The position numbers were made by a program, and so were the translations under genes. This document shows, piece by piece, positions 33,557 through 63,814 of a DNA stretch of 64,000 nt. The first letter of the stretch is position 1; every line of letters starts with the position of its first letter. The notes under the pieces were generated by a model that worked only from the letters and a program-made list of their open reading frames with translations, did not search any database and was not told the origin of the DNA. Origin of the DNA: Amycolatopsis thermalba (GTDB lineage: Bacteria > Actinomycetota > Actinomycetes > Mycobacteriales > Pseudonocardiaceae); NCBI RefSeq assembly GCF_003385215.1, contig NZ_PQHW01000019.1:1-64000 (forward strand). Reading direction: 5' to 3'.

Positions 33557-33563
33557 GGCGGGC

Positions 33564-34205: not shown

Positions 34206-34224
34206 CCGGCGCCGAGCCGGCGGA

Positions 34225-34710: not shown

Positions 34711-34742
34711 CACGGCGGGCTCGCTCGGCCGCGTTCACGGCC

Positions 34743-35937: not shown

Positions 35938-36011
35938 GGGGCCGGCTGCGCATCCTCGTCGGACCCCGCGGGTACCGTCCACGCAGGAGCACGACGCGTG
36001 GAGGAGCCACG

Positions 36012-36242: not shown

Positions 36243-36274
36243 TCGTCCGTCCACTGCGGACTAGGGTGCCCGGT

Positions 36275-37560: not shown

Positions 37561-37579
37561 CTCTCCACTGTGCCCGCGG

Positions 37580-37605
37580 CTTTGCCGATTCCGCAAAGAA
37601 CTTTG
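37580..37605. promoter_or_regulatory. Likely operator of the HTH-cupin regulator
   Basis: CTTTGC-7-GCAAAG (37580-37598) is a perfect inverted repeat. Its right arm also pairs with the next CTTTG (CAAAG-AA-CTTTG, 37594-37605). Three half-sites in 26 bases between the divergent regulator and methyltransferase genes fit cooperative autoregulation. Confidence 0.6.
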
Positions 37606-37639
37606 TCAGCCGGCGGGCGTGCGGGGCACCGTGGTGGTC

Positions 37640-39050: not shown

Positions 39051-39061
39051 GGAGGTTCCTC

Positions 39062-39772: not shown

Positions 39773-39825
39773 GGTCCTCACCCTAGCCAGCCCGGGCGAA
39801 TCCTTTTCCGGCATCGGGCGGGTCC

Positions 39826-40704
39826 TCAGCGCAGTGCGGCGCGGGCGCGGTCGAGGAACACCCGCGCCGCCGGGCTCACCGGGCCCGCCGCCCGCCAGGC
39901 GAGGGCCAGGCAGCCGCGCAGCGGGGGATCGGTGATCGTGATCGCGTGCAGGTCGGGCCGGGTCGTGGCCACCGACTCCGGCAGGATCGCCACGCCCAGC
40001 CCGCGCGCGGCGAGGTCGGCCAGCACCGCGGGGTGCCTGGCCTCGAACCCGATCCGCGGGGTGAGGCCCCGCGCGGCGCAGGCCTCGTCGAGGCGGGCGC
40101 GCAGGCCGGTGCCGGCGGGCAGGCTGATCAGCGGCCGGTCCCGCAGGTGCGCCAGCGGGACCTCGGCTCGGCCGGCCCACTCGTCGTCCAGGCCGACCGC
40201 CGCGGTGATGGCCTGCTCGGTGAGGACCAGGACGTCCAGGCCGGGTGGTCGTTCGTCGGTGGCGAGGCTGACGATCGCCGCGTCCAGGCGTCCGCCGCGG
40301 ATGTCCTCGGACAGCTGCTCGGAGCGGCCTTCGACGAGCGTGATCTCCACGCCCGGGTGGTCGTCGTGCCAGGCGGCGAGCAGGCCGGGCACGTCGAAGC
40401 TGTGCGAGGTGACCATCCCGAAGGCGATCTTGCCCCGGACCAGGCCGCGGAACTCGTCGGCGACCAGCCGCGCCCCGGCGACGGCGGCCAGCGCCGCGCG
40501 GGCGTAGGGCAGCACGGCGGCGCCGACCTCGGTGAGCCGGACGGGGCGGCCGGAGCGGTCCAGCAGTTCGTGCCCCAGCTCCCGTTCCAGGCGCCGGACC
40601 TGCGCCGACACGCCGGGCTGGGCCACGTGCACGCGTTCGGCGGCGCGGGTGAAGTTGCCCTCCTCGGCGACCGTCACGAAGTACTCGAGCTGCCGCAGTT
40701 CCAT
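39826..40704 (-). CDS. LysR family transcriptional regulator
   Basis: A 292-residue LysR-type regulator. Residues 1-60 form the winged helix (MELRQLEYFVTVAEEGNFTR, AAERVHVAQPGVSAQVRRLE), and residues 88-290 the two-lobed periplasmic-binding-like sensor domain (GKIAFGMVTSHSF, GVAILPESVA). Start ATG 40704. It is divergent from the NTF2-like gene at 40793 with 88 bp between, the usual LysR-target arrangement. Confidence 0.94.
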   Translation of the reverse strand: MELRQLEYFVTVAEEGNFTRAAERVHVAQPGVSAQVRRLERELGHELLDRSGRPVRLTEVGAAVLPYARAALAAVAGARLVADEFRGLVRGKIAFGMVTSHSFDVPGLLAAWHDDHPGVEITLVEGRSEQLSEDIRGGRLDAAIVSLATDERPPGLDVLVLTEQAITAAVGLDDEWAGRAEVPLAHLRDRPLISLPAGTGLRARLDEACAARGLTPRIGFEARHPAVLADLAARGLGVAILPESVATTRPDLHAITITDPPLRGCLALAWRAAGPVSPAARVFLDRARAALR

Positions 40705-40718
40705 AACCGCTGATTCTA

Positions 40719-40732
40719 GTAGCGAGACCTAC
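40719..40732. promoter_or_regulatory. Candidate LysR binding site
   Basis: GTAG-6-CTAC forms a short inverted repeat in the intergenic region between the divergent LysR and NTF2-like genes. It is compatible with the T-N11-A type site of LysR proteins. The arms are only four bases, so this is weak evidence. Confidence 0.35.
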
Positions 40733-40792
40733 CAGCTCTTGGACTTCTGGCTCGTGCGGCGAGAGGCTGGGTGGAGAGGAAGGGAGCGAAAC

Positions 40793-41149
40793 ATGATCGA
40801 CAAGGCCCGGAGGCCGGAGGATCTGGCCGTGATGTTCGTGGAGCGCGCCAACGCGCGGGACGCGAAGGCGCTGGCCGAGCTGTACGCCGAGGACGCGGTG
40901 CTGGCGTTCCCGCCCGGCTCGCAGACGGTCGGCCGCGACGCGATCCGGGAGGTGCTGGAGCGCCTGGTGGAGCAGGGCGGTGAGTTCCAGGTCGAGGAAC
41001 CGATGCCGACCGTCTACTACGGCGACCTGGCGCTGTGCTCGACCAAGCCGGCCGACGACACCGGGGGACGGGTGCAGGTCGCGCGGCGGCAGCCGGACGG
41101 CACCTGGCTGCGGATCATCGACCGGCCGGAGATCCGCCGCCCGGCGTGA
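40793..41149 (+). CDS. NTF2/SnoaL-like protein
   Basis: A 118-residue protein with the nuclear transport factor 2 fold. The N-terminal helix LAVMFVERANARDAKALAEL, YAEDAVLAFPPGSQTVGRDA and the strand-rich C-terminus (GRVQVARRQPDGTWLRIIDR) are typical of YybH-like SnoaL proteins. ATG 40793 follows GGAAGGGAG. It is probably controlled by the divergent LysR regulator. Such proteins are steroid/polyketide isomerases or small-molecule binders; the role here is unknown. Confidence 0.87.
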   Translation: MIDKARRPEDLAVMFVERANARDAKALAELYAEDAVLAFPPGSQTVGRDAIREVLERLVEQGGEFQVEEPMPTVYYGDLALCSTKPADDTGGRVQVARRQPDGTWLRIIDRPEIRRPA

Positions 41150-41197
41150 GGTCGTCCGCACCGCGGCCTCGGCCGGCTGGCAGGCTCACCCGCCGGA

Positions 41198-42124
41198 TCA
41201 CACGGAAGTGCTCGCGGGGACCCGGCCGGTCGGCCGCTCGGCGATGATCTCCCGGATGCCGTGGCTGTCCACCCGCAGGAGGGTGGGCACCAGGTCGCCG
41301 CTCGTGTCGGGCGAGGTGCGCACCCACTCGGTGAGCTCCGCAGCCCAGCCGGAGCTCACACCGGCGACGTAGATGTGGTCCGGGCTGACCAGCGCCGCCA
41401 GCAGCTGGTCCTCGCCGACGTGCGCGCCGATAGTCTCGGCGAAGTCGTCCATCACGACCGCGGACGCGGCGCACAGGCTGTTGTCGCCGCGCTCCAGGAT
41501 GACCAGGGGGCCCTTGTCCGGGTCCGGGGCGACCTTGACGATGAGCCCGCGCCGGAGGTTGCCGACCGCTTCGTCGATCAGTTCGTGGAACTCGTCCTCG
41601 CTCAAGGCATCGGCTTGGTTCCTCAGCAGGTGGGACATGCCGACCCGGCCCTCGGGCGTGGCGGTCGCCCTGGCGAAGCCGAGGTGCAGCCGGTCGTCCA
41701 CCAGCGGCAGCGAGTAGTAGAGCTTCAGCGGACCGTCGTAGGTGTGGAGGATGGGCAGCCATTCCCCCTCGGATTCGGCCCGCACGAACGCGTCGCGCAG
41801 GCTCTCGAGCTGCACCTTCGTGTTCTCCTCGCGGGCGGCTTCGAAGGCTGTGTCCCAGTCGCCGTCGGCGGGGCGGTCGAAGTCGTGCGTGATCTCGGCA
41901 CCGCGAAACGTCGCGGCGAGGAAGATCCGGTCCACCCGCGAGGGCTGCCAGACGCTGTGCACGCGGGTGATGTCGGGCGGCTGGACCTGCCGCTCCCGCT
42001 GGACTTGGCGCCAGGCCTGCCGGATGGCGTCCTCGGCCTGGGCCGGCGCCGCTGCCCGCAACAGATCGTCCTCGTCGCCGTTCACCTGGAAAACGACGAC
42101 GTTCAGGCGCGCATTCTCGTCCAC
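41198..42124 (-). CDS. Unrecognised 308-residue protein
   Basis: A 308-residue soluble protein starting at GTG 42124. I do not recognise the family. It has no signal peptide or membrane helix. Notable segments are PDITRVHSVWQPSRVDRIFL, PLKLYYSLPLVDDRLHLGFA (strand-rich), ALSEDEFHELIDEAVGNLRR and VMDDFAETIGAHVGEDQLLA. The last two faintly recall DUF1444-type proteins (an NLR turn followed by a lobe), but I would not rely on that. Codon usage is normal for the window. It stands alone between an NTF2-like gene and the PrmC-like gene, which is divergent. Confidence 0.75.
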   Translation of the reverse strand: MDENARLNVVVFQVNGDEDDLLRAAAPAQAEDAIRQAWRQVQRERQVQPPDITRVHSVWQPSRVDRIFLAATFRGAEITHDFDRPADGDWDTAFEAAREENTKVQLESLRDAFVRAESEGEWLPILHTYDGPLKLYYSLPLVDDRLHLGFARATATPEGRVGMSHLLRNQADALSEDEFHELIDEAVGNLRRGLIVKVAPDPDKGPLVILERGDNSLCAASAVVMDDFAETIGAHVGEDQLLAALVSPDHIYVAGVSSGWAAELTEWVRTSPDTSGDLVPTLLRVDSHGIREIIAERPTGRVPASTSV

Positions 42125-42293
42125 GCGCGATGATCTTACTCAGACGCGCCGACCGTTCCGTGCCGGCGCGAGAGCGGCCGCGGTGCTGTACCCCGCCGCC
42201 TCCGCTAGGGTGATCACCACGACCGACCGAGGAGGTGAGACCCGTTTCCGTTCCGCCAACCCGGGTGCTCGCCTCCGGCGACGAGTGAGCCGC

Positions 42294-42329
42294 GAGCGCC
42301 CGTTTCCCCCGTGAAAGGCGCTCTTTCTT
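42294..42329 (+). promoter_or_regulatory. Attenuator-like hairpin ending at the PrmC-like start codon
   Basis: GAGCGCC (42294-42300) and GGCGCTC (42317-42323) form a perfect 7-bp stem, followed by TTTCTT up to the TTG start at 42328. The right arm includes the AAAGG ribosome binding site (42314-42318). It could act as an intrinsic terminator or hide the ribosome binding site. It is seen in the sequence; the function is inferred. Confidence 0.45.
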
Positions 42330-43113
42330 GTCCGTCGATTCCGAAACCGTCCTCGTCGGCCGCCTGCGCGCCGCCGGCTGCGTCTTCGCCGAAGACGAGG
42401 CCCGGCTGCTGCTGGCCGCCGCGGCCACCCCGGCCGAGCTGGAGGCCCTGACCGCTCGGCGGGTCGCCGGCGAACCCCTCGAACAGGTCCTCGGCTGGGC
42501 CGGGTTCCGCGGCCTGCGCATCCACGTCGAACCGGGCGTGTTCGTGCCCCGGCGGCGCACCGAGCTGCTGGTCGAGGAGGCGGTCCGGCTGGCCCCGCCG
42601 CGTCCGGTGGCGGTGGACCTGTGCTGCGGCTCCGGCGCGGTGGGCGCCGCGCTGGCCGCCGAACTCGACCTCGCCGAGCTGTACGCCGCGGACCTCGACC
42701 CCGCCGCGGTGCGCTGCGCGCGCCGCAACGTTCCCGGTGAGGTCTTCGAAGGCGACCTGTACGCCGCGCTGCCGGACGGGCTGCGCGTGCGGGTGGACCT
42801 GCTGGTCGTGAACGTGCCGTACGTACCCACCGAAGCTGTCGCGCTGATGCCGCCGGAAGCACGCCTGCACGAACCCCAGCTGGCACTCGACGGCGGCGCC
42901 GACGGCCTGGACATCGCCCGCCGCGTCATAGCCGGTGCCCCGGCCTGGCTCGCGCCGGGCGGGCACCTCCTGATCGAAACGAGCGAACGCCAGGCGCCGG
43001 CACTGGTCCGCGCCGCCACCGGCGCCGGACTGGTCCCGCGTGTGGCGACCTCCGACGAGCTGGACGCCACGGCGCTCGTGGCCCGCCGGGGGCGGGGGCT
43101 AGGCGGGAGCTGA
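42328..43113 (+). CDS. PrmC-like protein N5-glutamine methyltransferase (diverged)
   Basis: A 261-residue SAM methyltransferase related to PrmC/HemK. The start is TTG 42328. A helical N-terminal substrate domain includes PLEQVLGWAGFRGLRIHVEP and FVPRRRTELLVEEA, as in PrmC. Motif I is VDLCCGSGAVGAALA. The catalytic NPPY motif is changed to NVPY (LLVVNVPYVPTEA), and HEPQLALDGGADGLD follows as in PrmC. The changed motif marks a paralogous group annotated as putative glutamine methyltransferases, so release factors may not be the substrate. It overlaps the convergent GntR gene by 15 bases. Confidence 0.88.
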   Translation: MSVDSETVLVGRLRAAGCVFAEDEARLLLAAAATPAELEALTARRVAGEPLEQVLGWAGFRGLRIHVEPGVFVPRRRTELLVEEAVRLAPPRPVAVDLCCGSGAVGAALAAELDLAELYAADLDPAAVRCARRNVPGEVFEGDLYAALPDGLRVRVDLLVVNVPYVPTEAVALMPPEARLHEPQLALDGGADGLDIARRVIAGAPAWLAPGGHLLIETSERQAPALVRAATGAGLVPRVATSDELDATALVARRGRGLGGS

Positions 43114-43779
43114 GCGGAGGCCGCGGAGCACGGGTTCGAGGTTGGCGACCGTGGCGGCGACCGCTGCGTCCGCGTCGCCGCGTTCGAGGGCGTCCAGGAG
43201 GTCGGCGTGGGCGGCGGAGGAGTCCGGCAGCTGCGTCTCGTGGCGAACCAGGTCGGTCAGGATCTCGCGCAGCACCGGCTCCGCGGCCGTGAACAGGCTG
43301 AGCAACAGCGCGTTGCCGGACAGCTCCACCACGCCGCGGTGGAAGGCGAGATCGGCGTCGACGAACACCGCCGGGTCCGCGCCACGCTCGTCCTGCCGTT
43401 TCCGCAGGCCGGCGCGCAGACGATCGACGTCCTCGGGCCGGACCCGCCGTGCGGCGAGCCGCGCCGCCTCGACCTCGAGCGCACGGCGGACCTCGTACAC
43501 CTCGAGCACCCGCGCGCGCCGCACCAGCCGCCGCACGTCGCCGGTGTCGGCCGTCCCGGCGGCGACGAACGTGCCGGAGCCGTGCCGGACGTCCAGGAGC
43601 CCGTCCTGGACCAGCAGGCGAACCGCCTCCCGCACCGACGAGCGCCCGACCCCGAACTCCGCGGCGAGCTGGACCTCGTTGGGCAGCCGGTCGCCGGGCC
43701 GCCAGTCACCGCGCCGGAGCCGCTGCCGCAGCAGGCTCGCGACCTGGGGCACGACCGGTCCACGGCGCAGCTCCGTCAT
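43099..43779 (-). CDS. GntR/FadR family regulator (FCD domain)
   Basis: A 226-residue regulator. Residues 8-75 are the GntR winged helix (LRRGDWRPGDRLPNEVQLAA EFGVGRSSVREAVRLL), and residues 85-215 the FCD ligand domain (VLEVYEVRRALEVEAARLAA, DADLAFHRGVVELSGN with a metal-binding His). Start ATG 43779. A perfect palindrome 19 bases upstream suggests autoregulation. There is no obvious adjacent metabolic operon, so its targets may lie elsewhere. Confidence 0.92.
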   Translation of the reverse strand: MTELRRGPVVPQVASLLRQRLRRGDWRPGDRLPNEVQLAAEFGVGRSSVREAVRLLVQDGLLDVRHGSGTFVAAGTADTGDVRRLVRRARVLEVYEVRRALEVEAARLAARRVRPEDVDRLRAGLRKRQDERGADPAVFVDADLAFHRGVVELSGNALLLSLFTAAEPVLREILTDLVRHETQLPDSSAAHADLLDALERGDADAAVAATVANLEPVLRGLRSAPA

Positions 43780-43797
43780 GGGCGCACGGTAGCACTG

Positions 43798-43807
43798 CAG
43801 ACGTCTG
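43798..43807. promoter_or_regulatory. Candidate GntR operator
   Basis: CAGACGTCTG is a perfect 10-bp palindrome, 19 bases upstream of the GntR/FadR start codon. Its AC/GT core fits GntR-family sites. Position suggests autorepression. Confidence 0.5.
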
Positions 43808-43865
43808 AGGACTCACGTGCGGAGCAGCAGCCCGGTCCTCCTGCGGCCACGGCAGATCCGGCAGG

Positions 43866-44198
43866 TCAGGGCCGGGGGAGATGCGTGCTGTGCGCGTCGA
43901 ACGCGCAGCGCAGTTGCCGTTCGGTCAGCAGGAACAGGAACGGCCGCCCGGCGCAGCGCGCGCACACGGTCGCGCAGGCCACGTCGTAGCCGTCGGGGCG
44001 GCTGAACACCGACGTGGCCACCCGCAGGTCCTCCGTCGAGCCGCAGCCGTCGCAGGTGGGCGCGATGGGGCAGTCGCTGTGGTCGGTGAGGGACTCGCGG
44101 GGCGGGTCGAACGCGAGGTTGTCCAGGTCGTCCGCGTCCTCCCAGGCCGGGTGCTGGTCGAGGAGCCGCCGCCAGCGGCTCTGCAGCTTGGTCGCCAT
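43866..44198 (-). CDS. Zinc-ribbon-type hypothetical protein
   Basis: A 110-residue protein from ATG 44198. The N-terminus is helical and acidic (MATKLQSRWRRLLDQHPAWE). The middle carries two CxxC pairs (CDGCGS near residue 50 and CARCAG near residue 80), plus a further C in DHSDCPIAP, consistent with zinc binding. It ends with FDAHSTHLPRP. I do not recognise the family. It is divergent from the VOC gene. Confidence 0.7.
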   Translation of the reverse strand: MATKLQSRWRRLLDQHPAWEDADDLDNLAFDPPRESLTDHSDCPIAPTCDGCGSTEDLRVATSVFSRPDGYDVACATVCARCAGRPFLFLLTERQLRCAFDAHSTHLPRP

Positions 44199-44381
44199 CG
44201 CACGGTCCTTTCGTCGCTCCGGCCTCCCATGCTCGGCCGCCGCGAAGCCCACGGCGGCGTTGACACACGACCGGGCCACCAGAACGACCTGACCGGGTGA
44301 CAGCGGGACCAAATCCTCTGGCCGCGTCCCCGTGGCCGGGCCTAGCGTCGGTGACCCATCGAGCCATGGCAGGAGACGGCG

Positions 44382-44771
44382 ATGAGCGGCAGGATCGTCC
44401 ACTTCGAAATCCCGTTCGACGACGGCGAACGCGCGCGCGGCTTCTACCGCGAGGCGTTCGGCTGGAACGTCACCGAGATGCCGGACATGAACTACACCAG
44501 CGTGGCCACCGGCCCGACCTCCGAGCAGGGCATGCCGAGCGAACCCGGCTTCATCAACGGCGGCATGTTCGCGCGCGAGGAGTCGGCCCCGAAGAGCCCG
44601 GTGATCACCATCGACGTGGCGAGCATCGACGAGACGCTGGGGAAGGTCGAGCAGCTCGGCGGCGCCAAACTGGTGGGCCGCACCGAGATCCCGGGCATGG
44701 GGTGCTACGCGTACTTCACCGACACCGAGGGCAACGTCATCGGCCTGTGGGAGAACCTGCCGCAGAGCTGA
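44382..44771 (+). CDS. VOC family (glyoxalase-like) protein
   Basis: A 129-residue vicinal-oxygen-chelate protein. Two beta-alpha-beta-beta-beta modules are visible: IVHFEIPFDDGERARGFYRE and PVITIDVASIDETLGKVEQL. The C-terminus has YAYFTDTEGNVIGLWEN with the last metal-ligand position. ATG 44382 follows AGGAGA. It may be a lyase, dioxygenase or binding protein. Its end overlaps the convergent kinase gene by 35 bases. Confidence 0.9.
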   Translation: MSGRIVHFEIPFDDGERARGFYREAFGWNVTEMPDMNYTSVATGPTSEQGMPSEPGFINGGMFAREESAPKSPVITIDVASIDETLGKVEQLGGAKLVGRTEIPGMGCYAYFTDTEGNVIGLWENLPQS

Positions 44772-45312
44772 CGCGCGCCTCGGTCCAGGCGCGGGCGAGG
44801 ATTTCCTCGCCCGCGCCGGCGGGGGACTGGTCCGAGGAGTCGAGCCACAGTCCGAGGCGGGGCGTGTCACGCCGGAGCACCGCGTCGAGCTGGGTGATCG
44901 CCCAGTCGTCGTAGGCGGTCTTGCCGCGCCCCTCCTCGCGGGCGGCGATGGCTTCGGGCCGCGGCGCGAGCACGACCACCAGCAGGGGCCGCCGCCGGAT
45001 CAGCTCGACCATCTCGCCGAGGTGTTCCCCGAGAACGACGTCCTGCGCGACGACCGTGAACCCGGCGTCGAAGTAGGCGTCGCAGGTGGCCGCGGTGAGG
45101 CGGTGACGCAGGCGGAGCTGCCGGACCGCCGCTTCGGCGGAGGGGTCCGGGCTCATGTCGGCGCGCCCGTTGACGATCATCCGGCGGAACCCGTCACCAC
45201 GCACGTGCACCGACCGGGGAAGCCGCTCGGCGAGCATCTGCGCGACGGTGGACTTGCCGGCCGCCTGGATCCCGGTGAGCAGGACGATCGCCGGCTCGGA
45301 CGGCAGGGACAC
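44737..45312 (-). CDS. P-loop kinase (zeta-toxin/chloramphenicol phosphotransferase-like)
   Basis: A 191-residue P-loop kinase. GTG 45312 is set by GGAGG five bases upstream. The Walker A motif is LLTGIQAAGKSTVAQMLAER (residues ~10-28). An aspartate follows in VHVRGDGFRRMIVNG, and a basic lid segment AREEGRGKTAYDDW is later. It resembles chloramphenicol phosphotransferase and zeta-type kinases, so a small molecule or nucleotide sugar is the likely acceptor. No antitoxin-like gene is adjacent. It lies 23 bases downstream of a CGNR gene. Confidence 0.87.
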   Translation of the reverse strand: MSLPSEPAIVLLTGIQAAGKSTVAQMLAERLPRSVHVRGDGFRRMIVNGRADMSPDPSAEAAVRQLRLRHRLTAATCDAYFDAGFTVVAQDVVLGEHLGEMVELIRRRPLLVVVLAPRPEAIAAREEGRGKTAYDDWAITQLDAVLRRDTPRLGLWLDSSDQSPAGAGEEILARAWTEARVSSAAGSPTGR

Positions 45313-45335
45313 GAGAACCTCCGGAACAGGGCAGC

Positions 45336-45848
45336 TCAACGGCTGCGGCGTGCGTGGGCGGCGACGCGGGCGCGGTTGCCGCAGACTTTGCTGTCGCACC
45401 AGCGGCGGTCGGCGCGGGCGGAGACGAAGACCTTGTGACAGCCACCGCCCTGGCATCGCCGCAGGTGCGCGATCTGCGGGCCGAGCAGGAAGTCCACCAC
45501 CGCGCGGCCGAGCACCTGCGGGACGGCCTCCGGTCCGGCGTCGTCCACCGCGACACCGCCGGCCGCGGGCCGCACGCGGAACTCCGCGCGGGCGAGCCCG
45601 GGTGCGGTGGCGAACGCCAGTTCTCCGGCCGGCGGTGCTTCGCCGGCCGCGAGGTGGTGCAGAACGACCTGTGTGGCGTCCCGTCGCGCGAGAACCTCCG
45701 GCAGCGCGCCCGGCGGCGTGGCGGTCACGCACGCGGCCAGGGCGGGCCAGGGCCGGGCCCACGCCCGGAACCGCTCGACGGTCGCGATCCGGTCCCGCCC
45801 GGGCGAGGACCGGGTGTTGGCGAAGGCCAGTGCCAGGGGTTCGGTCAT
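45336..45848 (-). CDS. CGNR zinc-finger regulator
   Basis: A 170-residue ABATE/CGNR protein, start ATG 45848. The N-terminal ABATE domain opens with PLALAFANTRSSPGRDR. The zinc motif is CQGGGCHKVFVSARADRRWC, ending in the full VCGNRARVAAHARR. These proteins are thought to be ligand-responsive transcription regulators. An 8+8+8 inverted repeat lies just upstream, shared with the divergent DUF6196 gene. It probably also drives the kinase gene downstream. Confidence 0.92.
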   Translation of the reverse strand: MTEPLALAFANTRSSPGRDRIATVERFRAWARPWPALAACVTATPPGALPEVLARRDATQVVLHHLAAGEAPPAGELAFATAPGLARAEFRVRPAAGGVAVDDAGPEAVPQVLGRAVVDFLLGPQIAHLRRCQGGGCHKVFVSARADRRWCDSKVCGNRARVAAHARRSR

Positions 45849-45864
45849 CGACGACACCGTACCA

Positions 45865-45888
45865 AACTAATGGGTTGACTCATTAGTT
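45865..45888. promoter_or_regulatory. Operator between the CGNR and DUF6196 genes
   Basis: AACTAATG (45865-45872), the spacer GGTTGACT and CATTAGTT (45881-45888) form a perfect 8-base inverted repeat. It is in an otherwise short AT-rich intergenic region. The spacer contains a TTGACT -35-like box for the plus strand. A dimeric regulator, most simply the CGNR protein, could control both genes here. Confidence 0.65.
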
Positions 45889-45910
45889 CGGCTCGTGCGA
45901 GCCTCTGGTC

Positions 45911-46651
45911 ATGGTGACGATCTCCCGGGAAACGGGCGCCCAGACCGAAGCCCGGCTGCGCCGGGTGTTTCGTACGAGCGCGATCGACTGGCTGCCTGGG
46001 GCGTGGTCCTTCGTCGAAGGTGCGGATGCCGTTCGCCGTGCGGACGCGATCGCGCTCGTCCGCGACGAAGGCCGCCCCAGCGCCCTGTGCCCGGCCGCCG
46101 GAGCTGGTGAGCGGTTCGCGGTGTTCCGCGTCGTGCTCCCGAAGGGCGCCGACGACAGCGGGTTCGTGGGCTGGCTGTCCTCTCGCGTCAAGGCCTCGAC
46201 CGGGAGCGGCTTGTTCGTGATCTGCGGGCAGAACAGCGAGCGCGGCGGGATCTTCGACTACTACGGGGTTCCCGAGGCCGCGGCCGGGCCCGTCCGGGAC
46301 CTGCTCGACCGCCTGTCCGGCACCGGTTTCCTGGACGGCGTCGTGCTGCGCACCGTCGCGACGGCGGAGAGCTCGGCGCTCGGCCCCGGGACCGTCTTCT
46401 GCTTCGACCAGAACGGCGAGGCGATCACCGCGCGCTACGGCGGCGGCGGGATCGCCGACGGCTGGCTGGCCGGCACCCTCGACGGCGCCCGGGCCCGCTT
46501 CCACTACCTGCAGATCCAGACCGACGGGACCGTCGACAGCGGCCACTCGGAGGGCGAGGTGACCCGGTTGCCCGACGGACGGTGGCGCCTCACCGAGCAC
46601 TTCACCTGGGCGACCCGCGAAGGTGGGGGAACCAACCGGCTCGAGGAGTAG
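45911..46651 (+). CDS. DUF6196 protein fused to a C-terminal beta-barrel domain
   Basis: A 246-residue two-part protein. Residues 1-140 are DUF6196 (MVTISRETGAQTEARLRRVF, DSGFVGWLSSRVKASTGSGL, FVICGQNSERGGIFDYYGVP). Residues ~155-246 are a strand-rich domain (ITARYGGGGIADGWLAGTLD, FHYLQIQTDGTVDSGHSEGE) like the small proteins annotated as N-acetylglutamate synthase-like beta barrels. I know the two halves as separate proteins. ATG 45911 is clear. It is divergent from a CGNR regulator across a shared operator. Function unknown. Confidence 0.8.
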   Translation: MVTISRETGAQTEARLRRVFRTSAIDWLPGAWSFVEGADAVRRADAIALVRDEGRPSALCPAAGAGERFAVFRVVLPKGADDSGFVGWLSSRVKASTGSGLFVICGQNSERGGIFDYYGVPEAAAGPVRDLLDRLSGTGFLDGVVLRTVATAESSALGPGTVFCFDQNGEAITARYGGGGIADGWLAGTLDGARARFHYLQIQTDGTVDSGHSEGEVTRLPDGRWRLTEHFTWATREGGGTNRLEE

Positions 46652-46825
46652 CCCCCGGCCTCCTCGAGGATCGCCAGGTGCCGGGACAGGTTCCCGGCAC
46701 CTGGCGAGGGTCCGGCGCAGGTATCCGAAGTCCACCTGCCCGGCCTCGGCGGCGATCGTGAGGATGCCGAGCCGGTGCCGCTGGTGCACGGTCTCGTCCA
46801 GGCCCGCCGCGGGGTGCTCGCTCAC
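46640..46825 (-). pseudogene. Winged-helix regulator remnant disrupted by a palindrome
   Basis: GTG 46825 (overlapping the upstream remnant's stop, GTGA) opens HQRHRLGILTIAAEAGQVDF GYLRRTL, the first helices of a winged-helix regulator. The frame is then lost at a perfect 15-bp inverted repeat. The recognition helix continues in another frame as NLSRHLAILEEAGG and is cut off where the DUF6196 gene ends. Only about 60 of ~100 residues remain. Confidence 0.8.
46672..46706. repeat. Perfect 15-bp inverted repeat with 5-base loop
   Basis: CGCCAGGTGCCGGGA (46672-46686), loop CAGGT, and its exact complement TCCCGGCACCTGGCG (46692-46706). It lies 21 bases after the DUF6196 stop and has no following T run. 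One arm is authentic coding sequence of the winged-helix remnant (LSRHLA); the other replaces expected coding sequence. Confidence 0.9.
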
Positions 46826-47160
46826 GCGCGCGCCCGCCGCTCGTGCCACGCCGCGACCGCGCCGCCCAGCAGCAGGACCAGCCCCGCGACGAGGCCGAAG
46901 ACCATCGCGGCGGCGGTGGTGACGCCGCGCGCGGTCCGGCTATCGAGCTTCGAGCGGAGCGACAGGGCTCCGCCGACTGCGAGGTTCGCCGAACCGCACA
47001 CCCGCGACGACGAACAGCGGCGGGCGGGCGGCGGTCCCCAGCGGCGCGAGCAGCACGAGCACGGCGAACAGGATCAGCGGCGGGACGTAGGCGTGCCGGT
47101 CCGCCCGGGCCCGCGCCCGGAGCCGCGCCATCTCGTCGAGCAGGTTGGCCGGGGGAGGGG
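46819..47160 (-). pseudogene. Remnant of a membrane protein gene
   Basis: On the minus strand, LLDEMARLRARARADRHAYV then PPLILFAVLVLLAPLG gives a charged N-terminus and first membrane helix. After a frame change near 46985, a last helix follows: AAAMVFGLVAGLVLLLGGAV AAWHERRARA and a stop at 46819. The middle helices are missing. Its stop overlaps the GTG of the winged-helix remnant, so the two were an operon in which both members have decayed. The rest of 47161-47309 shows no gene. Confidence 0.7.
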
Positions 47161-49000: not shown

Positions 49001-49376
49001 ACCCCGATCCAGCGGTGTAGCCGTGGAGTGCTTCCCATCGGATGTCGTGGGCGGCCGGCCAGAGGTCTGCCACCCAGATTCGTCCGCGATGAGCACTCAC
49101 CAGAGCACTCAAATTCCGCCTGCGCCGCAGCGTGTTGAGGGTGGTGAGTGTGGGCGACGCCCGCCTCTGATGCAGCTACTTGACATAATGTGCATTATCG
49201 GCGACCGCGACAACGTCGGAAAGAGGGGCACAGCGCGGTGAGGTTCGGGTTCGGTGGCGAGGTCGGGCAGCAAAGCGGCCGGACTCGACCGTGATGTCCC
49301 ATTGCGGCGGCGGCTCCCCGCCAAGTGGGTGGTAATCCGCTTGGCGAGCCCTCTCGCCCGTGCTGGGATGCGCCCG
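49001..49376. other. 376 bp intergenic region holding a dif-like site
   Basis: No convincing ORF on either strand. It contains the dif-like XerCD site at 49178-49205, in a short AT-rich patch. No terminator hairpin or promoter could be assigned with confidence for the GNAT gene that follows. Two imperfect CCGCCAAGTGG/CCGCTTGGCGAG elements near 49320-49350 form a weak inverted repeat. Confidence 0.6.
49178..49205 (-). other. dif: dif-like XerC/XerD recombination site
   Basis: On the minus strand: left arm GTCGCCGATAA, 6-base centre TGCACA, right arm TTATGTCAAGT. Compared with E. coli dif, as I recall it, the right (XerD) arm matches 9 of 11, the centre 4 of 6 and the left (XerC) arm 7 of 11. 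The innermost arms ATAA/TTAT are perfectly inverted, and the TTATGTnAAnT XerD-arm pattern is also that of Bacillus. It is intergenic and the only such site I saw in the window. This would mark the chromosome terminus, or be a Xer site used by an integrated element. Confidence 0.75.
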
Positions 49377-50153: not shown

Positions 50154-50174
50154 CCGGCACCGGCTCCCCCGCGC

Positions 50175-52565
<2,391 letters not shown>

Positions 52566-52587
52566 GGGGTCTCCTGGGAGGGTGGGG

Positions 52588-52611
52588 CGTGGCCGGCGGT
52601 CGCCGGCCACG
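52588..52611. promoter_or_regulatory. Intercistronic hairpin between the VOC and UvrA-like genes
   Basis: CGTGGCCGGCG and CGCCGGCCACG form a perfect 11-bp inverted repeat around GT. It lies between the VOC stop and the UvrA-like start. There is no T run, so it may stabilise or process the operon mRNA rather than terminate it. Confidence 0.55.
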
Positions 52612-52619
52612 CGGTGGGG

Positions 52620-53027
52620 TCAGCTCAGCTGCTGGATGCGGACCATGTTGCCCGCGGGGTCGCGGAAGGCGCAGTCGCGCACGCCGTAGGGCTGGTCGAC
52701 CGGCTCCTGGACGACCTCGGCGTCGCGGGCCTGCAGGCGTTCGAAGACGCCGTCGAGGTCCTTGGTGGCGAGGTTGATGCTGGCGAAGGTGCCCTTGGCC
52801 ATCATCTCGGAGATGGCGTTGCGCTCGTCGTCGGTGATGCCGGGGGTGGCCTCCGGCGGGTACAGCACGATGGAGACGTCCTGGCCGGGCGGGCCCACGG
52901 TGATCCAGTGCATGCCGTTGAAGCCGACGTCGTTGCGGACCTCGAAGCCGAGGACGTCGCGGTAGAAGGCGATGGCGGCGTCCCGGTCGTTGTGCGGGAG
53001 GTAGGTGGCGTGAATGCTGATGTCCAT
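52620..53027 (-). CDS. VOC family protein
   Basis: A 135-residue glyoxalase/bleomycin-resistance-fold protein, start ATG 53027. Module one is MDISIHATYLPHNDRDAAIA FYRDVLGFEV; module two FASINLATKDLDGVFERLQA; the C-terminus is CAFRDPAGNMVRIQQLS. It sits between the AraC regulator (10-base gap) and the UvrA-like ATPase. In such a context a drug-binding role like that of bleomycin-resistance proteins is plausible but not shown. Confidence 0.9.
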   Translation of the reverse strand: MDISIHATYLPHNDRDAAIAFYRDVLGFEVRNDVGFNGMHWITVGPPGQDVSIVLYPPEATPGITDDERNAISEMMAKGTFASINLATKDLDGVFERLQARDAEVVQEPVDQPYGVRDCAFRDPAGNMVRIQQLS

Positions 53028-53037
53028 GGCGGCCACA

Positions 53038-53481
53038 CTATTTCCGGGCCGCCGGCGGCGCTTCTCGATTCCTGATCGGTCTGGTGACCTGCTTGGCGAT
53101 GCACGCGGGCATGCCCAGCGTCGCGTCGGCGGCCTGGGCGCGGTAGGCGCTGGGTGGCATGCCGACCAGTTCGGTGAAGCGGGTGCTGAAGGTGCCCAGT
53201 GACGAGCAGCCGACGGCGAAGCAGACTTCGGTGACGCTCAGGTCGCCCCGGCGCAGCAGCGCCATCGCGCGTTCGATGCGCCGGGTCATGAGGTAGGAGT
53301 AGGGCGATTCGCCGTAGGCGCGCTTGAACTCCCGGCTGAGGTGCCCGGCCGAGACGTTCACGCCGCGGGCGAGCGCCTCGACGTCCAGCGGCTGCGCGTA
53401 CTCCCGGTCGATCCGGTCCTTGACGCGGCGCAGCATCGCGAGGTCGCGGAGGCGCTGGGCCTCGCCGGTACTCCTGGTCAC
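53038..53481 (-). CDS. AraC family regulator (DNA-binding domain only)
   Basis: A 147-residue protein with an AraC double helix-turn-helix and almost no sensor domain. GTG 53481 is followed by DLAMLRRVKDRIDREYAQPL, ALARGVNVSAGHLSREFKRA YGESPYSYL and CFAVGCSSLGTFSTRFTELV. Stand-alone AraC domains of this type resemble SoxS/Rob/MarA-like regulators. It is the first gene of the AraC-VOC-UvrA-like unit and probably activates it. Confidence 0.9.
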   Translation of the reverse strand: MTRSTGEAQRLRDLAMLRRVKDRIDREYAQPLDVEALARGVNVSAGHLSREFKRAYGESPYSYLMTRRIERAMALLRRGDLSVTEVCFAVGCSSLGTFSTRFTELVGMPPSAYRAQAADATLGMPACIAKQVTRPIRNREAPPAARK

Positions 53482-53545
53482 CTGCGGAATCGTGCCATAC
53501 CGGGCGCCGCCGCGGAGGCGGAATCGGCGCACCGGCCGTCGCGGT

Positions 53546-53755
53546 TCAGCTCACGGGCCGTTCGAAGGTCACCAGGATGCCTTCGACACCACCCGGCCCG
53601 AGACGGCCCTTCACGTCCGCCGTGGTGATGGCCTTGAGGCGCCAGCCCTGGGCGGCCTGGTCGTTGGGCACCTTCTCCAGCCGGGCGCCTGACATCTTGC
53701 CGCCGATGAGCTTCTCGCGCAGCTCGACCACCTTGTACTCGTACCGCTCCGCCAT
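53546..53755 (-). CDS. DUF4177 domain protein
   Basis: A 69-residue protein from ATG 53755. ERYEYKVVELREKLIG at the start and AAQGWRLKAITTADVKGR with VEGILVTFERP at the end match the small DUF4177 fold (two strands, helix, strands). The tryptophan in the QGWRLK turn is the family's most conserved residue. Function is unknown. Confidence 0.83.
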   Translation of the reverse strand: MAERYEYKVVELREKLIGGKMSGARLEKVPNDQAAQGWRLKAITTADVKGRLGPGGVEGILVTFERPVS

Positions 53756-53800
53756 GCCGACGATCATCCCGGCCCGCGGCGGTGGTGTCGACCCGGTGGG

Positions 53801-54172
53801 TCAGCGCAGCCGTTCCAGGTCGCGGGCCGTTTCGGCGAGTTCGCGGGCCATGCGGCGCAGCTCGCCGGCGTCGGCGCCGTCGTCGGCAGCGGTGACGACG
53901 TCCTCGGCGGCGCAGCGCAGCTGGAACAGGCGGTCCTGCAGCGCGGTCAGCTCGGTGTCGGACAGCACGACGGCGTCTTCGGGCAGCCCGGTGCGCTGGA
54001 CCGCGACCCGGCGTTCGTAGGCGCGTTGCCGGCAGGACTGCCCGCAGTACCGTCGCCGGCGGCCGGTGCTGCCCTGTTCGATCGGCCTGCCGCACCATCC
54101 GCAGTGCAGGACGGCGCCCGCCCGCCGCCGGCGTGGGGCCACCGCCTCGATCTGGTCCACCTGTCCGCTCAC
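53801..54172 (-). CDS. Zinc-finger-like hypothetical protein
   Basis: A 123-residue protein from GTG 54172. Residues ~23-47 form a four-cysteine motif (LHCGWCGRPI, RRRYCGQSCRQRAYERR), similar to the treble-clef-like finger of small actinobacterial DNA-associated proteins. The C-terminal half is helical (DTELTALQDRLFQLRCAAED, LRRMARELAETARDLERL). It is divergent from the GDPD gene. Function unknown; nucleic-acid binding is plausible. Confidence 0.75.
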   Translation of the reverse strand: MSGQVDQIEAVAPRRRRAGAVLHCGWCGRPIEQGSTGRRRRYCGQSCRQRAYERRVAVQRTGLPEDAVVLSDTELTALQDRLFQLRCAAEDVVTAADDGADAGELRRMARELAETARDLERLR

Positions 54173-54238
54173 GCAGCAGACCCTAACCGGCCACTCCGCA
54201 CTCATGCCTCGGCCACGCCGATGCCGCACACTGGTCGG

Positions 54239-55024
54239 GTGCAGATCAACCACCCGTACCTGAGCGGCACCCTGCCCCGCGCGTTCGCCCACCGCGGCTG
54301 GCACCTGGACGAGCTGGACGGGCTGGAGAACTCGCTTCCCGCGTTCCAGCGCGCGGCCGCCGAGGGCTACGCCTACGTCGAGACCGACGTGCACGCCACG
54401 GCCGACGGTGTGGTCGTGGTCCACCACGACGCCCTGCTGGACCGCACGACCGACGCGCACGGCCCGATCGCGAAGCAGACGTGGAAGGCCGTGCGGCAGG
54501 CCAAGATCGGCGGCCGCACGCCGGTGCCGCGCCTGGAGGACGTGCTGGAGGAACTCCCCCAGACCCGGTTCAACATCGACATCAAGAGCGGCCGGGCGGT
54601 CGTGCCGTTCGTGAAGACGATCGAGCGGATGGGCGCGTTCGACCGGGTCGCGGCGGCCGCGTTCTCCGACACCCGGCTGGCCGCGATCCGCAAGCTGGCG
54701 GGGCCGAAGCTGATCACGTCGATGGGGCCGCGATCGGCGGCCGTGCTGTGGGCCAGCGGGTGGCTGCTGTGGGCGCGGCTGGGCTTCCTGTGCCGGGGCG
54801 AGATGGCGCAGGTGCCCTCCCGGCAGGGCGCGATGACGGTGATCGACCGCGGGTTCGTGCGCAGCGCCGAGCGGGCCGGCGCCGAGGTGCACGCCTGGAC
54901 GATCAACAACCGGGCCCACATGGAGCGGCTGCTGGACCTGGGTGTGCACGGCATCGTCACGGACCGGCCGGACGTGCTGCGCGAGGTGCTCACCGAGCGC
55001 GGCGCCTGGCCACCGGCGACCTAG
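54239..55024 (+). CDS. Glycerophosphodiester phosphodiesterase
   Basis: A 261-residue GDPD-family TIM barrel that releases glycerol-3-phosphate from glycerophosphodiesters. Catalytic elements: AFAHRGWH (His-Arg), ENSLPAF, YVETDVHATADGVVVVHHD with the metal-binding Glu/Asp and second His, and VHAWTINNRAHM at the C-terminus. GTG 54239 is chosen; ATG 54221 is also possible. No signal peptide, so it is cytoplasmic. Its end overlaps the convergent Rpf gene by four bases. Confidence 0.92.
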   Translation: MQINHPYLSGTLPRAFAHRGWHLDELDGLENSLPAFQRAAAEGYAYVETDVHATADGVVVVHHDALLDRTTDAHGPIAKQTWKAVRQAKIGGRTPVPRLEDVLEELPQTRFNIDIKSGRAVVPFVKTIERMGAFDRVAAAAFSDTRLAAIRKLAGPKLITSMGPRSAAVLWASGWLLWARLGFLCRGEMAQVPSRQGAMTVIDRGFVRSAERAGAEVHAWTINNRAHMERLLDLGVHGIVTDRPDVLREVLTERGAWPPAT

Positions 55025-55692
55025 CGCGGCGGCTTGCCCTCCCACGCCGCGTTCCACGTCTTGGGGCCCAGGCGCCCGGAGTCGTTGATGCCGTTGGCGC
55101 GTTGCAGGTCCAGGACGGCGTCGCGGGTCTTGTCGTAGTAGCAGCCGGTGCCGGTGAAGCCGTAGCCGAAGGCGTTCATCCGCAGCTGGAAGGTCTTGAG
55201 GGCCTCGGCGCAGTCGCCGTAGGCGTAGACGACTCCGGGCCAGGCGGGTTTGGTCACCGGCGCCGGGGCGGGGACTCCGCCGCCGCCGATGTAGGCGCTC
55301 TCGGCGTAGCTGGGGACGCGTTTGCTGCGGGCGTCCTTGTCGTTGCGCAGCCCGAGCATGCCGGCGCACTCCCAGGGCTGCCAGCCGCGCATGCGGTAGA
55401 GGTAGAGCGCCCGGTAGTCCTGCTCGGCGGGGGTGGCGAGGTCGGGGCGGCCCTTGCCGCCGACGCTGCGCCAGGTGGGCAGGTCGAACTGGTAGGCGCC
55501 GTAGTAGCCGTTGCCGGTGTTGACCGAGTAGCGGTTGCTGGACTCGCACATGCGCAGCTTCAGCCAGGTCGCCGCGCTCGGGTCGGCCGCCGCGGACGGG
55601 GCGGTGACCACCTGGACCCCCAGGGCGAGCAGCACCGCGAGCACGAGCCCGGCGCTCGCGCGGGCCGGGGGTCTCCACCGGGGCTTTCTCAT
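55021..55692 (-). CDS. Resuscitation-promoting factor-type transglycosylase
   Basis: A 223-residue secreted protein. A signal peptide is clear (basic RKPRWRPPAR, hydrophobic LVLAVLLALGVQVVT, cleavage near APSAAA-DP). The Rpf domain follows (WLKLRMCESSNRY with the catalytic Glu, then GNGYYGAYQFDLPTWRSVGG). Residues ~150-223 are a peptidoglycan-binding-like repeat (ALKTFQLRMNAFGYGFTGTG, DLQRANGINDSGRLGPKTWN). It cleaves peptidoglycan and stimulates regrowth from dormancy in relatives. Start ATG 55692. I saw no convincing riboswitch in the 238 bp upstream. Confidence 0.92.
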   Translation of the reverse strand: MRKPRWRPPARASAGLVLAVLLALGVQVVTAPSAAADPSAATWLKLRMCESSNRYSVNTGNGYYGAYQFDLPTWRSVGGKGRPDLATPAEQDYRALYLYRMRGWQPWECAGMLGLRNDKDARSKRVPSYAESAYIGGGGVPAPAPVTKPAWPGVVYAYGDCAEALKTFQLRMNAFGYGFTGTGCYYDKTRDAVLDLQRANGINDSGRLGPKTWNAAWEGKPPR

Positions 55693-55930
55693 GCGGCCAC
55701 CGTAAGTTTGGACATCAGGAACCACAACTGTCACAACAAGCCCATCAGCATCACCGGCACCACCCGCCGGCCGGCCCCCGCCTCGCGCGCGGACCTGCGA
55801 ACACCCCGGAAAACCGGACAAAGTGCTCCCCTTAGCGCCACTCCCCTGTCATCGGCACCCGGAGGCGGCGGCTCCGCTGTTTTCACCCGATCAAGGGAGC
55901 CGTCGGCGGGGCTGGATAGGGTCGTCGGTC

Positions 55931-56686
55931 GTGACCACCCCTGTCGACTCCGATCCCGACCCGACCGACGCCCTGTCCCCGCTGCCCTCGCGCAACGGCT
56001 CGGGCGTGCCGGCGCGGGGCAGGCTGCGGTTCTGCTACGGACCGATGGACTGCGGCAAGTCCACGCTGGCGCTGCAAATCGACCACAACCACGCGCGGCA
56101 GGGCCGGCGCGGGATGCTGCTGGTGCGGCACGACCGCTCGGGCGAGCCGCGGATCAGCAGCCGGATCGGGATCACGCGCGGGGCGACCGAGGTGGGCGCG
56201 GACACCGACCTGCGGCAGCTGGTCCGCCGCGAGTGGGTCGCCGGGCGGCACCTGGACTACCTGATCGTGGACGAGGCGCAGTTCCTGTCCGCCGAGCAGG
56301 TCGAGCAGCTGGCCGAGCTGGCCGACGAGGTGTCCCTGGACGTGTACTGCTTCGGCATCGCCACCGACTTCCGCGGCCGGCTCTTCCCGGGCGCGCGGCG
56401 GCTGTTCGAGCTGGCCGACGAGCTGCAGCCGGTGCAGGTGGAGGTGCTGTGCTGGTGCGGCGCGCCGGGGCGGTTCAACGCCCGGGTGGCTGACGGGGAG
56501 GTCCTCCGGGAGGGGGACACGGTGGTGGTCGCCGACACCGTTCCGGGGGTAGTTGAAAACACAAGTTCACCACACTGGGAGACGGAAGTGGCTACGTTGC
56601 GTTATCAAGTATTATGCCGCCGCCACTTCCGGCTCGGCGACCTCGGGCCCGCGACACCACGGCATGGTCAGCTACGACTGACCTGA
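55931..56686 (+). CDS. tdk: Thymidine kinase (class II)
   Basis: A 251-residue thymidine kinase that phosphorylates salvaged thymidine. GTG 55931. The P-loop is GPMDCGKST (37-45), the Walker B-like LIVDEAQF follows near residue 118, and the zinc lid has CWCGAPGRFNARV with a later LCRRH. Codons 207-228 (56549-56614) are strikingly unlike the rest: GTA, GAA, ACA, AGT, TCA, CCA, TTG, CAA and a TTA leucine codon at 56612. TTA needs the rare bldA-type tRNA in streptomycetes, so translation may be limited by it here too. Confidence 0.92.
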   Translation: MTTPVDSDPDPTDALSPLPSRNGSGVPARGRLRFCYGPMDCGKSTLALQIDHNHARQGRRGMLLVRHDRSGEPRISSRIGITRGATEVGADTDLRQLVRREWVAGRHLDYLIVDEAQFLSAEQVEQLAELADEVSLDVYCFGIATDFRGRLFPGARRLFELADELQPVQVEVLCWCGAPGRFNARVADGEVLREGDTVVVADTVPGVVENTSSPHWETEVATLRYQVLCRRHFRLGDLGPATPRHGQLRLT

Positions 56687-56830
56687 ACGGATCAGCCGCT
56701 CCCCCGCACGGGGGAATATGCCGAGAAGAGCACCACATCCGCGTCACGTCGCGCGCCGAATCACCTCTCAACAGAGGAAGCTGTTGCCGAGGGGTGACGC
56801 AGCTCATCGTGAGTAACGACATGGTGCGGT

Positions 56831-56858
56831 GGGAATTCCCAGTTGCCAGTAGCCGTTG
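56831..56858 (+). promoter_or_regulatory. Sigma-R (thiol-oxidative stress) type promoter of rbpA
   Basis: GGGAAT (56831-56836), exactly 18 bases, then GTTG (56855-56858), 56 bases upstream of the rbpA ATG. This fits the SigR consensus GGAAT-N18-GTT. In Streptomyces rbpA is a known SigR target, which supports the call. Confidence 0.83.
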
Positions 56859-56914
56859 CATAGGGTGAGCATCACCCTGGCTCTAGACCCGGAGCCGACT
56901 GAAAGGACGTCATC

Positions 56915-57262
56915 ATGGCCGACCGTGTTCTCCGTGGAAGCCGGCTGGGAGCGGTCAGCTACGAGACCGACCGCAATCACGATCTGGCCCCGCGCCGGAC
57001 GGTGCGTTACGCGTGTCCGAAGAACCACGAGTTCGAGGTGCCCTTCTCCGACGACGCCGAGATCCCCTCGGTGTGGGAGTGCCGCCTGCACGGCAGCGAG
57101 TCCGAGATCGTCGATGGCGCGCAGCCCGAGCAGAAGAAGGTCAAGCCGCCGCGCACGCACTGGGACATGCTGCTCGAGCGGCGGAGCATTCCCGAGCTCG
57201 AGGAACTGCTGAACGAGCGTCTCGCTGAGCTGAAGGGACGGCGTACGTCCAAGTCGGCGTAG
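56915..57262 (+). CDS. rbpA: RNA polymerase-binding protein RbpA
   Basis: A 115-residue actinobacterial transcription factor that binds the principal sigma factor and RNA polymerase and stabilises open complexes. ATG 56915 follows AAAGGA. The N-terminal tail (ADRVLRGSRLGAVSYETDRN) is followed by the core domain with YACPKNHEFEVPFSDDAEIP, the basic linker QKKVKPPRTHWDMLLERRS and the C-terminal sigma-interaction helix IPELEELLNERLAELKGRR. A sigma-R-type promoter lies upstream and a terminator downstream. Confidence 0.97.
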   Translation: MADRVLRGSRLGAVSYETDRNHDLAPRRTVRYACPKNHEFEVPFSDDAEIPSVWECRLHGSESEIVDGAQPEQKKVKPPRTHWDMLLERRSIPELEELLNERLAELKGRRTSKSA

Positions 57263-57286
57263 CGCTCCTGCCTCTCCCACCACACC

Positions 57287-57321
57287 GAAGGCCCCCGTGT
57301 CCTCCCGCCACGGGGGCCTTC
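57287..57321 (+). terminator. Terminator-like hairpin after rbpA
   Basis: GAAGGCCCCCGTG (57287-57299) pairs perfectly with CACGGGGGCCTTC (57309-57321) around a 9-base loop, 24 bases past the rbpA stop. It has only a short T content after the stem. The strong GC stem is a typical actinobacterial terminator. Confidence 0.8.
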
Positions 57322-57410
57322 GCCTGTGCCGGCCCCGGTGGGTCCAGCCCCACCGGGGTGTGGGCCTGGACCGGTACTGCCGGCACGGCGGCCCGCATAG
57401 CGTCGCCGGA

Positions 57411-57813
57411 ATGACGAACGAGACAGTGCGCAAGTGCCTGGTGATCTACGGCGTGATGAGCGGCGTCGTGCTGGCGACGGTGGCCGTCGTCGCGCTCACC
57501 GGCGGCGAGGTGAACACGTTCATGTGGGTGCGGGCGGTCCTGCTGCTGCTGGCCGCTCCCCTGTTCCAGTGGATGGCCGCGCGCGGGAGCTACGCGGCTG
57601 CGGGCCGTGACCACGATCCTGCCGGTCGCGATCGTCGCGGTCGATCTGATCCCGGGTGTCTGCCCGGTCTGGTACGCCGCGATGCAGGGTGCGTCGGCGG
57701 TGCCGCTGATCGCGGTCGCCGTCCTCAGCCGAAGCGGCGCAGCAGCGTCCGCACCTGCTCGGCCCGGTGGCGAGCGCCCCACAGACCGACCCGCAGCAGG
57801 GCCTCGCGGATGA
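57411..57813 (+). pseudogene. Small membrane protein gene with a frameshift
   Basis: ATG 57411 opens VRKCLVIYGVMSGVVLATVA and LLLLAAPLFQWMAARGSYA. Near 57600 the frame shifts by one base, after which TILPVAIVAVDLIPGVCPVW and [17 protein letters not shown] continue the hydrophobic protein. Together they would make a four-helix protein of about 120-130 residues. One indel at GCGG could be a real mutation or an assembly error. The 3' end converges on ppm1. Confidence 0.7.
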
Positions 57814-58495
57814 TGGCGCCGCTCATCTTCGACTGGCCGATCTCGCGCTCGGTGAAGGTGATCGGCACCTCGACCACGTCGAACCCGGTGCGGACGGTGC
57901 GCCACGCGAGGTCGATCTGGAAGCAGTAGCCGCGCGAGGCGATCTCCTCCAGCGGCAGCTTCTCCAGCACCTCCCGCCGGTAGGCGCGGAACCCGGCGGT
58001 CACGTCCTTGATCCGCACGCCGAGCGCGAGCCGCGAGTAGAGGTTGGCCGCGCGGGAGAGCAGTTCGCGGTGCTTGGGCCAGTTCACCAGGCTGCCGCCG
58101 GGCACGTACCGCGAGCCGAGCACCAGGTCGGCGTCGCCGAGGGCGTCGAGCATCCGGGGCAGGTCGTCGGGGGCGTGCGAGCCGTCGGCGTCCATCTCGA
58201 CGATCGTGCGGTAGTCGCGTTCCAGGCCCCACCGGAACCCGGCCACGTAGGCGGCGCCGAGGCCGGCCTTCTCGGTGCGGTGCAGCACGTGGACGCGGTC
58301 GTCACCGGCGGCGATCTTGTCGGCGAGCTCGCCGGTGCCGTCCGGGCTGCCGTCGTCGACGACCAGCGCGTGCACGGCGGGCAGCGCCCGGTGCAGCCGC
58401 TCCAGGACGACCGGCAGGTTGTCCCGCTCGTTGTAGGTCGGGATCACCACCAGCACCGGATCGATCGGTCGCGTCGGCCGTGGCGCGTGCGCCAT
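57725..58495 (-). CDS. ppm1: Polyprenol monophosphomannose synthase
   Basis: A 256-residue GT2 glycosyltransferase that makes polyprenyl-phosphate-mannose for lipomannan and protein mannosylation. Motifs: [36 protein letters not shown], the metal-binding MDADGSHAP, and the C-terminal [14 protein letters not shown] with [11 protein letters not shown]. In M. tuberculosis this domain is fused behind Lnt; here it is a separate gene 27 bases after lnt. Start ATG 58495. It acts at the inner membrane face with no helix of its own. Confidence 0.94.
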
Positions 58496-58522
58496 CCCCT
58501 TGTTCCTCCCCCGCGGAGAACC

Positions 58523-60109: not shown

Positions 60110-60119
60110 GTGCTGAACT

Positions 60120-61730: not shown

Positions 61731-61828
61731 GGTGTCGAGTGTGCACGATGGGTCGCGACGAAAGCATTTACGTCGTATTGTCACTTTCACCGGAAGTTTT
61801 GACGCCGCAGCGCCGACGAGGAGCAGAG

Positions 61829-63440: not shown

Positions 63441-63516
63441 GCGAGGGTGCCTGGACCGTGCCCCCGGCCCGCCGGTCCTCATCCCGCCGCGGAGGCCGCA
63501 CCAGGTCCTGATACGT

Positions 63517-63812: not shown

Positions 63813-63814
63813 CC

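Follow-up and report, generated by a model that had tools for sequence, protein, structure and literature searches.

A 28-base site on the minus strand of the Amycolatopsis thermalba DNA analysed here (the window, a stretch of 64,000 nucleotides) is almost certainly the chromosomal dif of an Amycolatopsis species, at which Xer/FtsK would resolve linked sister chromosomes into monomers during cell division, and it marks the terminus of this draft genome. As such it is very probably an ordinary actinobacterial dif, expected rather than novel, and the larger points are a motif and a gene linkage. The heptamer GGGGGAG converges on the site from both sides and, judged by its distribution, behaves like an FtsK-orienting motif, a putative KOPS. 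We think it fairly probable that across much of the Actinomycetes FtsK takes its orientation from GGGGGAG, a polar heptamer distinct from GGGNAGGG that converges on dif in Amycolatopsis as in Cryobacterium, Arthrobacter, Nocardia and Micromonospora, and that dif in these bacteria has long been linked, in a fixed orientation, to a gene for a UvrA-like ATPase lying upstream of it.

The dif site and its setting

The minus strand at 49178-49205 reads GTCGCCGATAATGCACATTATGTCAAGT, that is GTCGCCGATAA TGCACA TTATGTCAAGT, and has the 11-6-11 layout, the inverted ATAA/TTAT inner arms and the XerD-type arm (TTATGTCAAGT) that the initial annotation had described. Its parts are as follows, the two arms being told apart by their resemblance to published dif sequences.

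49178..49205, minus strand: dif, 28 bp (almost certain from sequence, single copy and conservation)
49195..49205, minus strand: XerC-type arm, GTCGCCGATAA
49189..49194, minus strand: central hexamer, TGCACA (from sequence)
49178..49188, minus strand: XerD-type arm, TTATGTCAAGT

This 28-mer is the sole match at up to three mismatches in the window, where partial palindromes elsewhere stay at chance level, and the same threshold finds it once, as had been anticipated, in the whole draft (7,237,143 bases in 222 contigs, 98.5% complete). Exactly one dif is present in the genome itself and in each of the 18 same-genus relatives sampled. That the site is a chance AT-rich palindrome is practically impossible: none of 100 shuffles contained a match, 18/18 relatives carry the site, a reversed control pattern had no match among the family genomes listed, and we found nothing in favour of such a coincidence. 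The surrounding stretch, from about 49021 to 49359, holds no convincing gene, as had been claimed, though a mechanically called 206-aa minus-strand ORF (49176-49796) overlaps dif. On one side of it an epoxide-hydrolase-like frame stops at 49000, and on the other lies a GNAT-containing frame with two alternative starts, 49254 and 49360. The epoxide-hydrolase-like frame (48005-49000) begins within its EHN domain and is perhaps 5' incomplete.

Conservation held in every same-genus genome sampled and in the larger part of the family sample, where 206 of 297 genomes (our own included) match dif at up to three mismatches and 91 do not. Forty of these 91 were searched again with a looser 20-mer, which matched in 27 and left 13 still without a dif pattern. 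In genus g5 (e.g. G139, G169 and G203), nine of the 11 genomes tested had no recognisable dif even by the loose pattern; a diverged dif, another system and a linear chromosome are possible explanations there. At the level of the class, the loose dif core was matched by 108/138 genomes and, in family f17, which may be the linear Streptomycetaceae, by 0/12.

Because the genome is a draft of 222 contigs, the distance from dnaA to dif was taken from relatives, namely 40 single-contig family genomes among those listed, five of them from the same genus, with lengths rounded to 0.1 Mb except for G130. In 38 of these, the fraction of the chromosome between dnaA and dif is 0.45-0.55, and in the remaining two it is 0.589 and 0.649. 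Together with single copy and conservation, this opposite-origin position in relatives supports the terminal location proposed in the initial annotation; the chromosome is presumably circular. The proposal that arm orientation would report replichore polarity failed, dif sharing the strand of dnaA in 21 of the 40 genomes (p 0.87).

Matches to the flanks keep the window's orientation relative to dif in 18/18 same-genus relatives, the exceptions being three short matches in G187, G026 and G198. Since dif never flips against its neighbours in these relatives, the terminus block seems to invert as one piece, which is what symmetric inversions would produce; such inversions predominate in Actinobacteria (PMC5850607). 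One block beside dif was matched in all 18:

53801..57327, no strand assigned: block beside dif with a full or partial match in 18/18 same-genus relatives (flank comparison)

The content and length of the DNA adjoining dif vary among the same relatives, and the GNAT region (49311-50161), about 100 bp from dif, shares 91.1% identity over roughly 850 bp with a Streptomyces sp. NBC_00846 plasmid, a similarity that probably reflects recent transfer. The clustering of accessory genes at the terminus, as originally suggested, is to that extent partially supported. A 367-aa tyrosine recombinase encoded at 23751-24854 on the minus strand is distant from XerC/XerD (81 bits), and in G130, G249 and G226 matching DNA occurs no more than 17 kb from dif.

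Transferred GNAT DNA so close to the site would suit an origin as a dif-like attachment site of a plasmid, phage or Xer-dependent mobile element rather than as the chromosome's own dif, and so would G157, the only family genome among those listed with two dif-like sites. We regard such an origin as very improbable, given that neither the window nor the draft has a second site at up to three mismatches, that the 53801..57327 block is common to all 18 relatives, that single-contig relatives place dif at the midpoint, and that flank searches returned 13 plasmid records, all on neighbouring genes and none covering the site, and no phage. The second site of G157 (G157:C55:6710-6736, L180) also has GGGGGAG converging on it, with one plus copy to the left and seven minus copies to the right, and raises the question of a second replicon or a duplication. 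Elsewhere, a scan of viral contigs for dif-like sites yielded 74 loci, for which the 28-mers and GC content were listed; contigs L052, L055, L058, L060, L061 and L069 (0.5-0.6 GC) bear the same dif-like core and are perhaps phages that use host Xer recombinases.

GGGGGAG polarity around dif

GC skew had been expected to switch sign within a few kb of the site, and it did not do so. The window is mostly G-rich on the plus strand on both sides of dif, as is the contig as a whole (to its end at 78,278), with no switch at dif. In G130 (60 samples of 20 kb) the arms have mean skews of +0.0160 and -0.0087 (p 1e-4), with the best change point at +40 kb from dif; in G092 (40 samples) the means are +0.0096 and -0.0149 (p 4e-4), and the best change point lies at -40 kb. 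GC skew was dropped as a decisive terminus test, being weak and about 40 kb off in both sampled relatives. Pools of the 40 most skewed 7- or 8-mers were likewise rejected as a marker: they were noisy and gave no clear switch on our contig (7-mers, 542/428 on the left and 306/307 on the right; 8-mers, 221/150 and 129/123), which led us to consider the top heptamer alone.

We ordered heptamers by how unequally they fall on the two strands in G130 and G092 samples more than 210 kb from dif, and GGGGGAG (168/17) headed the list. On our own contig, which played no part in choosing the motif, 8/8 copies left of dif are on the plus strand and 10/10 on the right are on the minus strand, so that all 18 point to dif (two-sided binomial, 7.6e-6). 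The nearest copies, at -2.0 and +1.0 kb, bracket the switch. Fifteen of the 18 fall within the window, and three more, on the minus strand, lie further right.

1147..47157, plus strand: eight GGGGGAG copies left of dif, starting at 1147, 5875, 12734, 16594, 22894, 26687, 43874 and 47151
50164..63979, minus strand: seven GGGGGAG copies right of dif, starting at 50164, 50457, 54554, 56699, 58506, 61849 and 63973

In G130 there are 106 plus and three minus copies before dif and nine plus and 86 minus after it; the corresponding numbers in G092 are 76 and five, then two and 62. The interval in which a switch leaves the fewest exceptions runs from -1414 to +690 bp of dif in G130 (12/204 exceptions) and from -563 to +1441 bp in G092 (7/145). 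A further 16 same-genus genomes, examined over 14-20 kb around dif (40 kb for G162), have 116 of 119 copies pointing to dif. GGGGGAG is here a sharper terminus marker than GC skew.

Conceivably, the site is dif and the polarity of GGGGGAG stems from a general replication or transcription strand bias instead of from FtsK. G is slightly in excess on leading strands; the window has 15 copies where dinucleotide shuffles would give 21.8; and other G-rich words are skewed too, such as AGGGGAG (63/13) and GGGGAGG (229/96). We nevertheless find this explanation unlikely, if worth keeping in mind, chiefly on observations from a 2.0-Mb control set of G130 and G092 that includes the training samples. GGGGGAG has a leading-strand bias of 330/19, a ratio that no other of the 4153 lead-biased heptamers present at least 60 times equals, AGGGGAG being next, whereas the six other arrangements of its letters (18/7, 104/74, 146/72, 140/73, 229/96 and 32/20) reach just 32/20 to 18/7. 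Its leading-strand density, 0.94 per 10 kb at a distance from dif, reaches 2.22 less than 50 kb from it, and its bias goes from 30/8 at 2.4-3.7 Mb to 40/0 within 50 kb. The switch of the motif, within about 2 kb of dif, stands against a GC-skew change some 40 kb away. As to over-representation, the two estimates point in opposite directions: the leading strand carries 330 copies against 197 expected under a maximal-order Markov model, and the window falls below its shuffles. Among other words, GGGNAGGG is weakly biased (192/144), its form GGGGAGGG stands at 56/13, GAGAAGGG at 24/37 and GAAGAAG at 199/183. An FtsK-orienting role remains our preferred reading of the polarity.

The UvrA-like gene and the motif in other actinomycetes

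To the right of dif lies a gene that is linked to dif in other actinomycetes as well.

50175..52610, minus strand: gene for an 811-aa UvrA-like ATPase, with dif downstream on the same strand

The protein scores 699.5 bits to TIGR00630, under the cut-off of 729.8. Its 80 nearest named relatives include 14 loci with a dif-like site, and in 13 of these dif lies downstream on the same strand. The wider search in the class covered 80 of the 108 genomes with a dif-like site, a choice that was not random, the 28 left out being 12 of family f21, six of genus g47, four of g79, three of f14, two of f31 and one of g80. A strong UvrA-like match was obtained in 63 of the 80, on the dif contig in 38 and on another contig in 25. 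Of the same-contig genes, 25 of 38 (our own genome included) are within 20 kb of dif, and in 24 of these 25, spread over 10 families, dif is downstream on the same strand, with G370 as the exception; the other 13 are 37 kb to 3.8 Mb away. In G113, of the same genus, the best UvrA-like match lies 1.4 Mb from dif. The plainest reason for the linkage is inherited gene order at the terminus, with a functional tie as a possible alternative. Carnoy and Roten (PMC2731167) reported that dif lacks a specific genetic environment in Proteobacteria, and our literature search returned no paper with UvrA and dif as its theme.

The polarity of GGGGGAG extends to other genera and families of actinomycetes. 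Four genomes from other genera of the family have 30 copies toward dif and one away within 12 kb, and the 13 named loci with a UvrA-like gene and a dif-like site have 132 toward and four away (122 and four without A. tucumanensis, which is probably G146, counted elsewhere). The other 12 loci belong to Micromonospora, a Nocardioidaceae MAG, Arthrobacter, Paenarthrobacter, Rhodococcoides, three Cryobacterium, Puerhibacterium, Ornithinicoccus, Allonocardiopsis and Nocardia; the fourteenth, from Tsukamurella (L290), has a poorer site, lying upstream, and was excluded from the count. In G377 (family f31), with dif at 1,675,908, the CGGGGGAGC pattern switches across dif among the 100 listed of 163 places: the plus strand holds as far as 1,670,291, apart from three minus places within the initial 330 kb, and the minus strand from 1,677,846, apart from one plus place. 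All 50 places listed for G316 are plus and ahead of dif. Among the 100 listed of 257 places in G113, the strand is minus up to 2,257,223 (three exceptions) and plus from 2,282,602 (one exception), so that the motif, among the places listed, changes strand near dnaA too (2,231,120, some 50 kb away at most). Fourteen Streptomyces loci, taken as a linear control, have too few copies to weigh either way: the counts lie between 8/0 and 3/4 or 2/2, and one locus has no copy. Of the three loci on contigs longer than 7 Mb, two lean to the nearer contig end (8/1 and 3/1) and one is even (2/2).

Recombination machinery and known systems

The genome encodes 23 matches to the tyrosine-recombinase family, the two best of which are XerD (353.2 bits, above the curated cut-off of 329.6) and an XerC-like protein (316.3 bits, below its cut-off of 335.15), as well as one FtsK gamma domain (82.5 bits). 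Compared with the solved gamma domain of P. aeruginosa, the latter has an altered stretch, FAKAGRLMDLLE for YNRAARMIEAME, which we take to be the recognition helix. By analogy with the known Xer/FtsK system, from which we infer recombination at this dif, recombination between sister chromosomes would sometimes yield a dimer; FtsK, oriented by polar motifs, most likely GGGGGAG, would pump both arms to the point where the motifs converge; and at dif it would activate XerD and then XerC, the crossover giving two monomers. Should FtsK indeed read GGGGGAG, the motif could locate termini and give the direction of contigs at a resolution of a few kb in genomes whose GC skew is too weak for this.

No KOPS is named for Actinomycetota in the open-access literature that we searched, including the accessible portions of PMC13277299, PMC11898615, PMC5993296, PMC11537254, PMC5357621 and PMC4786541; Nolivos et al. 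2012 and Hendrickson and Lawrence 2006 may bear on novelty. The AIMS, strand-biased octamers with a gradient toward the terminus (PMC5993296), resemble GGGGGAG in both respects, although the latter is a heptamer and the accessible text names no actinobacterial motif for them.

The dif itself has a close counterpart in the suggested dif of Frankia alni, CACGCCGATAATGCACATTATGTCAAGT (Kono et al. 2011, PMC3025954). By eye, and for the 28-mer alone, 26 of 28 positions are equal, including the entire XerD arm and the centre, and the two differ at the first two bases of the XerC arm. Single copy and a location at the terminus are likewise common to our site and to the actinobacterial dif predicted in that paper.

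The nearest parallel to the motif is the KOPS of E. coli and Vibrio, GGGNAGGG (PMC5357621, PMC4786541), which like GGGGGAG is G-rich, biased to the leading strand, rising toward dif and switching there. FtsK gamma reads KOPS as GGG, NA and GGG and activates XerD (PMC5357621). In A. thermalba, FtsK most likely reads GGGGGAG and converges on dif, as the analogy suggests. The differences are that GGGGGAG is a heptamer, that the E. coli/Vibrio word and its form GGGGAGGG are less biased in the control set, and that the presumed recognition helix departs from that of P. aeruginosa; the last six bases of the motif, GGGGAG, fit the GGGNAG of the E. coli/Vibrio KOPS.
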